From Novibacillus thermophilus (GTDB lineage Bacteria > Bacillota > Bacilli > Thermoactinomycetales > Novibacillaceae), in contig NZ_CP019699.1 of NCBI RefSeq assembly GCF_002005165.1, positions 1,302,001 through 1,366,000 of the forward strand: 64,000 bases of DNA. The letters are read 5' to 3'. Numbering within the stretch: the first letter of the stretch is position 1; each line of letters begins with the position of its first letter. This document shows, one piece after another, positions 8,039 through 56,148 of this stretch. Below the pieces are notes generated by a model. It was not told where the DNA came from and did not search any database. It saw only the letters and a list, made by a program, of their open reading frames with translations. Position numbers and translations under genes: made by a program.

Positions 8039-8094
8039 ACAACTCCTTCCCATAAGTACATGATGCGGACATGTCGTGCGATTCACTGTGGGAA

Positions 8095-8214
8095 GGGGAT
8101 GTCTGAAGACAATTCCAAAAGTAGTGTCCTCTGATGCTCATTTTTCACTCTGCTCATCCGATAGGATCTCTGCCAATTCAAAGATGCTATCTTCTATTGT
8201 CTTCAGATATCCTC
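8095..8214 (+). repeat. MITE-like inverted-repeat element, copy 1
   Basis: A 120-bp noncoding element bounded by imperfect 19-bp inverted repeats (8095-8113 and 8196-8214; 17 of 19 positions pair). The interior is clearly similar, with small gaps, to the reverse complement of 29907-30041 (shared blocks include GGGGATGTCTGA, ACAATTCC, TTCACTCTGCT and CGATAGG). No transposase is present. I could not define a target-site duplication. Confidence 0.6.
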
Positions 8215-8255
8215 ATGATGTACCGTTCACTGTTGGTGTCGCAAAGAGGGATGAC

Positions 8256-16354: not shown

Positions 16355-16378
16355 AAACCCTCGGATCGAGGGTTTTTT
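16355..16378 (+). terminator. Terminator between rsfA and ylbP
   Basis: AAACCCTC and GAGGGTTT form a short perfect hairpin with TTTTTT on the plus side and AAAA on the other, so it can also stop ylbP transcripts. Confidence 0.8.
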
Positions 16379-21877: not shown

Positions 21878-21906
21878 AATCCTGCACGGTTTGTGCAGGA
21901 TTTTTT
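21878..21906 (+). terminator. Rho-independent terminator after ahcY
   Basis: AATCCTGCAC (21878-21887) and GTGCAGGATT (21893-21902) pair perfectly, followed by T6. It separates the bshC-ahcY unit from the dcw cluster. Confidence 0.9.
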
Positions 21907-28258: not shown

Positions 28259-28337
28259 CGATTTGGAATGTCTTTCGTGTCCGGAATTGGCAATACTGGA
28301 AGACACATCGTGTTGAACCGAGGAGGTGACCCCTTCT

Positions 28338-29825
28338 TTGCAACTGTCTGAATTGGCAGAGCAGCTCGTCCTGTCGCATGTAGAAGGGAACGGGAACATA
28401 GAGATAAAGGGAATTCAGATTGACTCCAGAAAGGTGGAGGCGGGGGATCTGTTTATCTGTTTGCGCGGGTTTACGGTGGACGGCCACACGTTTGCCCGGC
28501 AGGCGGTGGAACGGGGGGCTGTCGCGTTAGTCGTGGAAGAGCGGCAACGTGTGAACGTGCCGCAGTTGATCGTACCAGATACGAGAAGGGCCATGGCGAT
28601 GTTGAGCAGCTATTTTTACGGCAACCCTTCCGAGTCGCTGCACTTAATCGGTGTGACGGGAACGAACGGCAAGACGACAACGACCCACCTTATTCACCAC
28701 ATACTGACAGAGTGGGGAAAGACAGCCGGTTTGATTGGCACGATTCACATGCGTGTCGGCAAACGAACGGTCGAGATGAACAATACGACGCCGGAAGCCC
28801 TTGAACTGCAGCGCTACTTGTATGAGATGGTGTCAGAAGGCGCCGAATACGCGGCTATGGAAGTGTCGTCACACGCCCTCGATTTGGGAAGGGTGCGCGG
28901 TTGCCGTTTCCGGACGGCCGTGTTTACCAACTTGACGCAGGACCACCTCGACTACCACGGGACGATGGACCGTTACCGCGAGGCCAAAAGTTTGCTGTTT
29001 AGCCAGCTGGGAAACAGTTATGCACCGGATGCCCCGTCTTTTGCCGTGTTAAATGCAGATGACGAAAACAGCGCCTATTTTGCTCGGCGGACGGCGGCAC
29101 AAGTCGTTACATACGGCATCGACCGACCAGCGGATGTACAGGCGAAACACGTCGTCATCGACCAGCGCGGAACGTTTGTTGATGTCGAAACGTTTCGAGG
29201 AAATTTGCGTCTAACGTTGCAACTGGTCGGCAAGTTCAGTGTATACAACGCGCTGGCCGCTTTAACCGTCTGTTTGCTGGAAGGTGTTCCCCTCGATGTC
29301 ATCCAGAAGAGTCTTGAGAGTGTAACGGGTGTCAGCGGGAGGTTTGAGCGAGTCGACGCAGGACAGGACTTCACGGTTTTGGTCGACTACGCGCACACCC
29401 CGGACAGTTTGGAAAATGTACTGCAAACTGTAAAAGAGTTTGCCGATGGTCGCATTTTTTGCGTGGTCGGCTGCGGCGGGGACCGAGACCGGACGAAGCG
29501 GCCGATCATGGCCCAGATTGCCGTGCAGTACAGCGACTTAGCCGTACTGACATCGGATAACCCGCGCACCGAAGATCCGGTACGCATCCTCAACGATATG
29601 GTCGACGGCATTCAAGACGCCAATCGGGATCGGTATATCGTTATTTCGGACCGGCGCGAGGCTATTCACTACGCCGTTGGAAAGGCGAAGGCCAAAGATA
29701 TCGTGCTCATCGCAGGGAAAGGTCATGAGACGTACCAAGAGATCAACGGGAAACGGCACGACTTTGATGACCGCGAAGTGGCGCGGGAAGCGTTACAGTT
29801 ACGGGAAAAAATTACCGATGCGTAA
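28338..29825 (+). CDS. murE: UDP-MurNAc-L-Ala-D-Glu:meso-diaminopimelate ligase MurE
   Basis: 495 residues. It adds the third residue of the peptidoglycan stem peptide in the cytoplasm. The P-loop GTNGKTTTTH lies near residue 110, and the C-terminal motif DNPRTEDP is the meso-diaminopimelate-specific DNPR signature, so the wall is of the A2pm type. The start is TTG 28338, eight bases after AGGAGGTGA; the GTG at 28326 lies within that ribosome site. It is followed by a 300-bp gap before murF that holds a repeat element with a terminator. Confidence 0.95.
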   Translation: MQLSELAEQLVLSHVEGNGNIEIKGIQIDSRKVEAGDLFICLRGFTVDGHTFARQAVERGAVALVVEERQRVNVPQLIVPDTRRAMAMLSSYFYGNPSESLHLIGVTGTNGKTTTTHLIHHILTEWGKTAGLIGTIHMRVGKRTVEMNNTTPEALELQRYLYEMVSEGAEYAAMEVSSHALDLGRVRGCRFRTAVFTNLTQDHLDYHGTMDRYREAKSLLFSQLGNSYAPDAPSFAVLNADDENSAYFARRTAAQVVTYGIDRPADVQAKHVVIDQRGTFVDVETFRGNLRLTLQLVGKFSVYNALAALTVCLLEGVPLDVIQKSLESVTGVSGRFERVDAGQDFTVLVDYAHTPDSLENVLQTVKEFADGRIFCVVGCGGDRDRTKRPIMAQIAVQYSDLAVLTSDNPRTEDPVRILNDMVDGIQDANRDRYIVISDRREAIHYAVGKAKAKDIVLIAGKGHETYQEINGKRHDFDDREVAREALQLREKITDA

Positions 29826-29906
29826 CTTCCACGTCATGTAACACCAAGTTTCTGAAAGTAAATGTGGTCACGCTTATAGTATCGGCGCGCAATCCGTAGC
29901 GGGAGA

Positions 29907-30041
29907 GGGGTGTCTTGAGACAATGGAAGACAGCTTCCGTGATAAACGATGGCCCTATCGAAACAGCAGAGTGAAGAATCAGCTTCAGAGGCAGTGACCT
30001 CGATCGGTCACTTTTTTCTGGAATTGTTTTCAGACATCCCC
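29907..30041 (-). repeat. MITE-like inverted-repeat element, copy 2, between murE and murF
   Basis: Noncoding, about 135 bp, ended by imperfect inverted repeats (29907-29924 and 30023-30041). Its reverse complement aligns with 8095-8214 over most of its length. Inside is a 7-bp-stem hairpin followed by T6 (29993-30017) directed along the mur genes. No transposase is encoded. Confidence 0.6.
29993..30017 (+). terminator. Intrinsic terminator within the repeat between murE and murF
   Basis: AGTGACC (29993-29999) and GGTCACT (30006-30012) pair perfectly and are followed by T6. It faces the direction of dcw transcription and would reduce read-through into murF. The matching region of copy 1 lacks this hairpin. 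Confidence 0.65.
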
Positions 30042-30125
30042 TCCCCACAACACGTAGCATGATTTTCACTAATCTCGTAGGCATGAGAGTCTATTTTACT
30101 CGTCAGAAAGGATGGAGTGTCAACT

Positions 30126-31520
30126 GTGCAGACGACGCTTCAGCAATTGACCGATTGGCTTGGACTGGACAGTGCCGCAGTACGTCAAACAGAAAAAGGT
30201 GAGACCACATTGACCGGTGTTTCCACGGACACGCGTACGCTCGCAGCGGGGAATTTGTACATACCGCTGATCGGCGAACGATTTGACGGCCACGACTTTA
30301 TCAGAGAGGCAGTGGAGGCCGGGGCAGGGGCCGTCATGTGTCAACAAGACAGGGAGGTGCCGGCAGTCGACTGTCCTGTCATCGTCGTGCGGGATACGCT
30401 CGAGGCGTTGCAATGTTTGGCGCGGGCTTACCGCCGTCATTTAGGTATACCGGTCATCGCTGTCACCGGGAGCAACGGTAAGACGACGACGAAAGATTTG
30501 ACTGCCGCTCTACTGTCCGTCAAGTGGAAGGTGCACAAAACGAAAGGAAACTTAAACAACCACATCGGGTTACCGCTCTCCCTTTTGTCGATGGAAGAAG
30601 ACACCGATATGGCCGTCGTCGAGATGGGGATGAACCATGCAGGGGAGATCGAACTTCTTTCCCGCATTGCAACTCCGGATATTGCCGTCATTACGAATGT
30701 AGGCGATGCGCACATGGAGTTCTTCTCCGACAGACGGGGGATCGCCCGGGCGAAACTGGAAATTGTCGCAGGGTTGAAACGTGACGGCGTACTGTTTTTG
30801 AACGGTGACGATCCCCTCTTGGGCGAAGAAGGGGCGCATTTCAAAGGGGACGTGAGAAAGGTCGGTTTTTCTCCCGGATGTGAAGAAGGAGCGACTGACA
30901 TTCGCATGAAGGCGACAGGGACACAGTTTACGGCAACGCGGGACGGCTTACATTATCACATTCCGGCCCTCGGCAAGCACAATGTGTTGAACGCTTTGTT
31001 CGCCATTGCCGTCGGGCGGCATATGGGCTTAACAGGCCACGAGATGGCGGACGGCTTGAAGAGGGCGCTGTTAAGTGGACGTCGCTTGGAATTGAGAGAG
31101 ACACCGGCCGGCATGTGGATCGTCGACGATTCGTACAACGCCAACCCCATTGCGGTCAAGGCCGGCATCGAGGCGTTGGTAGAACTGGAAGGCAAACCGC
31201 GAAAGTGGGTGTTGTTAGGCGATATTTTAGAGCTCGGAGAGCGCGAAGAATCGATGCACCGCGACGTTGGAGCGTTCGTGGGCGATAAGCCGGTTGAATA
31301 CATTTTTACGGTCGGCCGTCGCGCCCGCTGGATTCACGAAGCGGCACTGGACGTGCGGCGAGACGAGGGGCATGTCATTCATTTTGAAACTGTAGAAGAG
31401 GCCATTCGGGAGTTGAAGCGCGTGGAAGATCCGAACGCCGCCTTGCTTGTTAAAGCGTCTCGCGGCAAGGCCCTTGATCGAGTGGTGGAAGCCCTGTGCA
31501 CTTCCCGTTCTGAACTGTAG
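30126..31520 (+). CDS. murF: UDP-MurNAc-tripeptide:D-alanyl-D-alanine ligase MurF
   Basis: 464 residues, last cytoplasmic peptide-adding step of peptidoglycan precursor synthesis. The P-loop [10 protein letters not shown] lies near residue 110; [10 protein letters not shown] and [13 protein letters not shown] are typical of MurF. Start codon choice is uncertain: GTG 30126 (GGATGGA nine bases upstream) or GTG 30117, which lies very near that site. Because an intrinsic terminator lies about 100 bp upstream, murF may rely on read-through or on a promoter that I could not recognise. Confidence 0.93.
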
Positions 31521-49614: not shown

Positions 49615-49898
49615 ACGCTTTAAAGACGATGACCGGGGCAGTAGGTGACGGCCCTCTTCTTGAAGCGAGCTGGGGACGGTGAAAGCCCAGTGTATGGCCA
49701 TCTCCGAACATCTCCCGCAAGTTGTCGCCTGAACGTTTCTGAGTTTAGCGTAAACGCTCTGAATCAGTAAGGTAGAACGTCTTTCCTCCACGTTACGGAG
49801 GGCGAAAGAGGTACTTCTGTTTTGATGACGGCAGAAGTGCTATCTAGGGTGGTACCGCGGGATTCCCTTCTCGTCCCTAAAGGACAGAAGGGTTTTTT
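49615..49898 (+). promoter_or_regulatory. T-box riboswitch controlling ileS, specifier ATC (isoleucine)
   Basis: The conserved T-box sequence AGGGTGGTACCGCG is at 49846-49859. Stem I shows the S-turn AGTA (49640-49643) and the facing GAAC (49706-49709), followed by the specifier ATC (49710-49712), an isoleucine codon. The tRNA-pairing bulge reads TGGT, matching a tRNA with discriminator A. The terminator is CCCTTCTCGTCC (49865-49876) paired with GGACAGAAGGG (49882-49892), then T6. Uncharged tRNA-Ile would stabilise the antiterminator and switch on ileS. Confidence 0.93.
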
Positions 49899-55509: not shown

Positions 55510-56061
<552 letters not shown>

Positions 56062-56148
56062 TTCAGTCCCGTGAGGCTGACAAGGGGAATGCCCTTTCCG
56101 GTGGGAAGGTGGAAACCTCTTGTGCCTGTGGCAGAAGAGGTTTTTTTT
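56062..56148 (+). promoter_or_regulatory. PyrR attenuator 2, between pyrR and pyrP
   Basis: Binding loop CAGTCCCGTGAGGCTGAC begins at 56064, followed by AAGGGG. The terminator AAACCTCTT (from 56113) pairs with AAGAGGTTT and ends in T8. Confidence 0.9.

Follow-up and report, generated by a model that had tools for sequence, protein, structure and literature searches.

A dispersed MITE-like palindromic repeat carrying a terminator-like hairpin lies between murE and murF of Novibacillus thermophilus

Folded dispersed repeats are already known as a kind. In Streptococcus pneumoniae, BOX, RUP and SPRITE are small dispersed folded repeats, and SPRITE resembles a Rho-independent terminator; the same account adds that co-transcribed pneumococcal repeats are thought likely to influence neighbouring genes, that some BIMEs inserted in operons are transcriptional attenuators, and that SPRITE is enriched in regions said to be more insertion-tolerant than sequences between co-transcribed genes (PMC3049150). 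ERIC, Correia/NEMIS and YPAL are presented in a second source as short intergenic inverted-repeat elements, most such elements being smaller than 200 bp, with TA at their ends and a duplicated target; some are co-transcribed, their stem-loops have been proposed to affect mRNA stability, and the effect of ERIC depends on its orientation (PMC2229807). REP and GTAG-tagged palindromes are intergenic (PMC3733652), and bcr1 designates repeats dispersed in genomes of the Bacillus cereus group (PMC6542083). Set beside SPRITE, RUP and BOX by description, the family analysed here likewise consists of small dispersed folded repeats, terminator-like and in a Firmicute host; unlike SPRITE as portrayed there, most of its strand-assignable copies lie between co-directional genes. 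Compared in the same way with the descriptions of ERIC, Correia/NEMIS and YPAL, it is ~258 bp long, has other ends and displays no visible duplication. REP and GTAG-tagged palindromes, which have associated transposases, share with it an intergenic palindromic nature, and short solo palindromes occur here too, but the present element is much longer, and no Y1 transposase match was found in its genome. Its likeness to bcr1 (~155 bp) is one of description, both being dispersed Firmicute repeats. By analogy, the family plausibly works like the pneumococcal and ERIC-type repeats. Among the papers listed on N. thermophilus and on such repeats, no title or opening of an abstract described it, and the way most of its copies face is a little unexpected.

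The window analysed is a 64,000-nt stretch of the N. thermophilus genome (contig NZ_CP019699.1, positions 1,302,001 to 1,366,000), and positions below are those of the window. Within it, murE (28326–29825, + strand) is an ORF with Pfam Mur ligase domains that stops at 29825, and murF follows at 30126–31520 (+ strand). For murF, the GTG at 30126 fits better than the GTG at 30117 given in the mechanical ORF list: an alignment by eye puts it level with the start of the sister-genus protein (MRTTFDQ..), and it follows the sequence AAAGGATGG at 30107–30115 at a suitable distance of 10 nt. Counting from this codon, the gap at 29826–30125 measures ~300 bp, as the original prediction had claimed. The genes 3′ of the gap are closely packed in the ORF list. 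MurF protein matches were obtained in 60 of 61 genomes, own genome included, and the best named match was that of Melghirimyces thermohalophilus (55%), in a comparison that possibly left out records from the own genome or near ones. The MurF of the sister genus (L266) contains extra segments within the protein, some of them low-complexity by eye.

Most of the gap is filled by one imperfect palindrome of ~258 bp (29852–30109, + strand), delimited by blast and covariance-model matches in the own genome, shared end motifs and the outermost stem of the predicted fold. An inverted-repeat element had been proposed at 29907–30041; the repeat is there, but that extent was too short, because the ends lie at ~29852 and ~30109, judging by the outer stem TTTCTGA/TCAGAAA and by what is homologous among the copies. 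On its left the element opens with CTGAAA (29852–29857, +), located 21 nt 5′ of GTATCGGC, a motif and spacing also present in copies L133 and L134 and degenerate in L136. Two inner inverted arms, TAGCGGGAGAGGGGTGTCTTGAGACAAT (29897–29924, +) and ATTGTTTTCAGACATCCCCTCCCC (30023–30046, +), were recognised by reading the sequence and from the consensus of copies. Of this inverted repeat, the pairing of GGGAGAGGGGTGTCTTGAGACAAT (29901–29924) with ATTGTTTTCAGACATCCCCTCCC (about 30023–30046) represents the inner part only; 22 positions of the inner arms are paired in the consensus of six copies, and the outer arms of the murE-murF copy pair imperfectly in the fold. The right terminus, read directly at 30104–30115 (+), is CAGAAA running into GGATGG and so forms AAAGGATGG, the likely Shine-Dalgarno sequence of murF; CAGAAA itself (30104–30109) was placed by eye, having been missed by the right-end scan.

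A terminator-like hairpin followed by a T-run (29993–30017, + strand) lies in the part of the element that is core to the family. Its perfect 7-pair stem, AGTGACC-TCGATC-GGTCACT (29993–30012, loop of 6), runs into T6 (30012–30017) and faces murF, just as had been predicted. The stem is modest, with G-C in 4 of 7 pairs and a predicted energy of -10.4 kcal/mol, and the arrangement of a G+C-containing stem and then a T-run is that of an intrinsic terminator. A strict count of perfect stems (at least 7 pairs, at least 3 of them G-C) running into T6 found 3 in the 64-kb window versus a mean of 0.03 expected from 30 first-order Markov sequences, while a looser terminator scan of the window found 2, no more than the 2.2 expected. 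The two other stems of the strict count (16357–16373 and 21880–21900, both +) are probably ordinary gene-end terminators. A hairpin and terminator 5′ of a gene would also be the layout of an ordinary cis-regulatory RNA leader of murF, such as a riboswitch or a T-box. We regard this as very improbable: Rfam scans of the gap returned 4 matches at E ≤ 10, all with E ≥ 1 and far below the gathering scores, which led us to reject a riboswitch, T-box or other known RNA here, whereas the gathering scan does detect the T-box leader (49620–49881, +) and the PyrR binding site (56051–56148, +) of the window. Furthermore, copies of the repeat stand 5′ of unrelated genes.

Judged by its matches, the element is a member of a family of ~260-bp non-coding palindromic repeats dispersed in the own genome, which was searched as one contig of 3,629,225 bases. 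Blast with the gap yielded two best dispersed matches, with E 1e-25 and 2e-25, followed by another five (2e-8 to 4e-5), with 71–86% identity to the gap copy over the pieces matched at E ≤ 4e-5. Blast with two of the copies thus found gave one further copy (E 4e-25 to one of them) and weaker fragments, and the use of that further copy as query added nothing firm in the own genome. A covariance model built on six copies produced 24 rows at E ≤ 10, several of which were the same palindrome on both strands; at E ≤ 1.2e-4 they represented 11 distinct places, of which 8 reached E ≤ 1e-11. Among the other 3 is L143, which consists of two paired arms and has no strand; the remaining 10 of the 11 are strand-assignable. 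To these can be added a further fragment from blast (L008, E 4e-5), weaker relics (L150, L152 and L153; covariance model E 0.1–0.7) and short solo palindromes (L148 and L151, together with L045, L071 and L100 from weak blast or pattern matches). The window harbours a second copy at 8078–8233 (- strand), flanked by an aconitase gene (Pfam), whose 3′ end faces it, and by a convergent ORF. Open frames of 83–96 aa cross 4 of 16 copies and were taken as chance. The repeated string TGCTTTGAGACAAT, with 13 matches in the genome, was considered and discarded as unrelated; in the two loci compared it lies inside a near-identical repeat of 1.7 kb. This 1.7-kb stretch, 99% identical between L103 and L109 of the own genome, is probably an insertion sequence.

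Both ends of the family were scanned at 17 places. On the left, CTGAAA located 21 nt before a GTATCRGC-like string was found in four (L131, which is the murE-murF copy, L133, L134 and the degenerate L136), a match in L143 being judged spurious; on the right, CTGAAA 21–23 nt after GTGCCG was found in L132, L137 and L146, with CTGACA in L138 as the fourth. Run at random places, the left-end scan succeeds in 4.4% of cases and the right-end scan, for which the spacing was set a little narrower, in 3.6%. No copy was picked up by both scans. Allowing 2 mismatches, the end pattern TGYCTKAAGACAAT had 94 matches versus 53 for its reversed control, and TAGCGGGAGAGGGG had 42 versus 44, which indicates that most 2-mismatch matches of the latter are chance; they were therefore excluded from the copy count.

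The family agrees with the general description of a MITE in being short (~258 bp), non-coding, dispersed in several copies and bounded by terminal inverted repeats, and, for the murE-murF copy only, in having an empty site in relatives. No target-site duplication was evident by eye at the element, and the CTGAAA present at both ends in direct order is common to the copies, so it is no plain target duplication. An autonomous parent was not noticed among the matches to the end patterns. One transposase family was looked for, PF01797. This Y1 transposase of RAYT/IS200 type gave 0 matches in the own genome and was positive in 5 of 14 control genomes; a REP/RAYT link was rejected on this ground. 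Since neither a target duplication nor a parent transposase was found, strict MITE membership is unproven, and the family is most likely a MITE-like repeat. Of the MITE-like insertion originally proposed, the repeat and the insertion are supported.

The comparison with relatives bears on insertion. Under stricter filters, with which weak matches are lost, none of 41 further genomes from the order had a member of the family at E ≤ 0.01. Blast rows at E ≤ 1 came from 40 of 61 genomes, own included; among the matches listed, those outside the own genome covered 16–32 bases with E 0.009 or more and were taken as chance. A covariance-model match in the sister genus (E 0.05) was dismissed as weak, with no evident resemblance by eye, and plasmid and phage collections gave no family match at E ≤ 0.01. 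Loci were obtained for 30 of the genomes with a MurF match, own included. The murE-murF distance is -20 to 17 bp, that is, overlapping or near, in 27 of 29 relatives measured, all from the same order, versus ~300 bp here. In these measurements the start of murF was taken as the start codon nearest the aligned position; L241, L251 and L252 have no start codon there, and an estimate was used. The remaining two relatives were L247, with 85 bp and possibly an earlier start, and L242, with 323 bp. The 323-bp stretch of the latter, relative G032, is of different sequence as far as read by eye. In the sister genus, read separately, the two genes are 4 bp apart and the likely Shine-Dalgarno sequence lies inside the end of murE. 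The dispersed copies, together with the lack of the element at the murE-murF junction of the relatives measured, point to an insertion here, and the comparison of gaps that the original prediction had called for thus supports it. These results support the view that the element was inserted where murE and murF formerly overlapped or nearly touched, and from them we infer that the family has been mobile.

We then considered how the copies face their neighbours, with flanks read from ORFs and named in part by Pfam. A strand could be assigned to 14 of the 17 places examined. Co-directional genes flank 11 of these, convergent genes one (L135) and divergent genes one (L138), and the context of L136 is unclear. 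L132 lies between genes for a PD-(D/E)XK nuclease and a UvrD-type helicase, and L146 between genes for a diacylglycerol kinase and a cytidine deaminase; from these Pfam domains and customary gene order we take them to be addB-addA and dgkA-cdd, respectively. L137 occupies dnaB-purA, L150 spoIIE-tilS, and L134 has plsY as a flank. Some assignments are weaker: the upstream flank of L134 is read as an ORF, that of L153 is an ORF with no Pfam match, and some flanking genes lie 400–730 nt away. Among co-directional contexts, the terminator strand is sense in 10 of 11 and antisense in one (L133) (two-sided P = 0.012), in a post hoc count that takes in the weak matches L150, L152 and L153, the hypothesis having been formed after seeing the data. 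With the firmer copies only (L131, L132, L133, L134, L137, L141, L146 and L008), 7 of 8 are sense (one-sided P = 0.035). Replication-strand bias was set aside as a cause: assuming an origin near position 1, strands were mixed by eye on both halves of the contig.

The right end also recurs beside start codons, adjoining those of the addA-like and cytidine-deaminase genes. At murF, L132 and L146 it passes straight into GG (CTGAAA|GG at the latter two), so that it forms or abuts the likely Shine-Dalgarno sequence of the next gene. Both this and the sense orientation would suit a domesticated control element, kept because it sets the balance between murF-mraY-murD and murE, or because its right end serves as a ribosome-binding cassette. 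We consider such a role quite unlikely, as the orientation count is post hoc and falls to 7 of 8 with the firmer copies, three junctions only are concerned, and relatives do without the element at murE-murF.

The region 29840–30116 folds at -87.6 kcal/mol versus a shuffle mean of -72.4 (z = -3.5; 0 of 200 shuffles as good), and the whole gap is predicted to form one long RNA hairpin with its outermost stem near the element ends; 29880–30025 by itself is unexceptional, 48 of its 200 shuffles being as good (z = -0.64). The consensus fold obtained from six copies carries an unfavourable covariation term of +2.4 kcal/mol, with a two-sided change in 6 of 35 pairs, which gives no support to selection on RNA structure. 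Several other copies have a weak hairpin over the homologous stretch (-4.3 in L132, -2.3 in L133, -5.1 in L134, 0 in L138 and, without T-run, -5.4 in L141); it is kept in L137 (-7.3) and L146 (-9.8). A range of 0 to -9.8 kcal/mol in seven others, versus -10.4 in the murE-murF copy, likewise leaves selection for termination without support. A crude terminator search of 13 copies gave hairpins at a shifted position for L132 and L153, nothing for L136, L141 and L152, and a stable hairpin for the divergent L138, and hence cannot tell sense from other copies. Such data allow for an inert spacer, a decayed and tolerated repeat whose hairpin does little and is read through: the copies have diverged (71–86% identity), several hairpins are weak, covariation lends nothing, and neutral decay would account for the relics and solo palindromes. 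This reading is possible but a good deal less probable than a functional one, because in the murE-murF copy the stem is perfect and leads into a T-run and the whole-gap fold is well below that of shuffles.

On balance, we favour, with some confidence, the explanation that the inserted MITE-like repeat acts in the RNA as a partial attenuator or processing site, murF being translated from the Shine-Dalgarno sequence at the right junction. During transcription, the hairpin and U-run would form before the 3′ arm is made, and part of the transcripts would stop or pause there, resulting in attenuation. Transcripts that read through would fold into the long double-stranded hairpin, which RNase III might cleave. 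Translation of murF would be uncoupled from that of murE and would start from AAAGGATGG. No promoter-like site reached the scan threshold between the hairpin and murF (30013–30116); the only match of the scan (29852–29880) is 5′ of the hairpin, with 1.2 expected by chance. Therefore murF-mraY-murD presumably rely on read-through, as the close packing of the downstream genes also makes probable, and termination must be partial, given that murF is essential.

Taken together, these findings indicate that a tightly packed essential cluster can accommodate, between two genes of cell-wall synthesis, a repeat that bears a likely terminator. Should the sense bias hold, it would go against the simple expectation that intra-operon terminators get purged. 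More speculatively, and at rather long odds, a mobile palindrome might enter or survive in operons preferentially in one orientation, as a package of leaky terminator, long RNA hairpin and partial Shine-Dalgarno sequence. If true, the repeat would swap translational coupling (murE-murF, addB-addA, dgkA-cdd) for an independent, tunable junction. The family itself, now defined and matched by an empty murE-murF site in relatives, offers a test case for the effects of repeats on operon expression.
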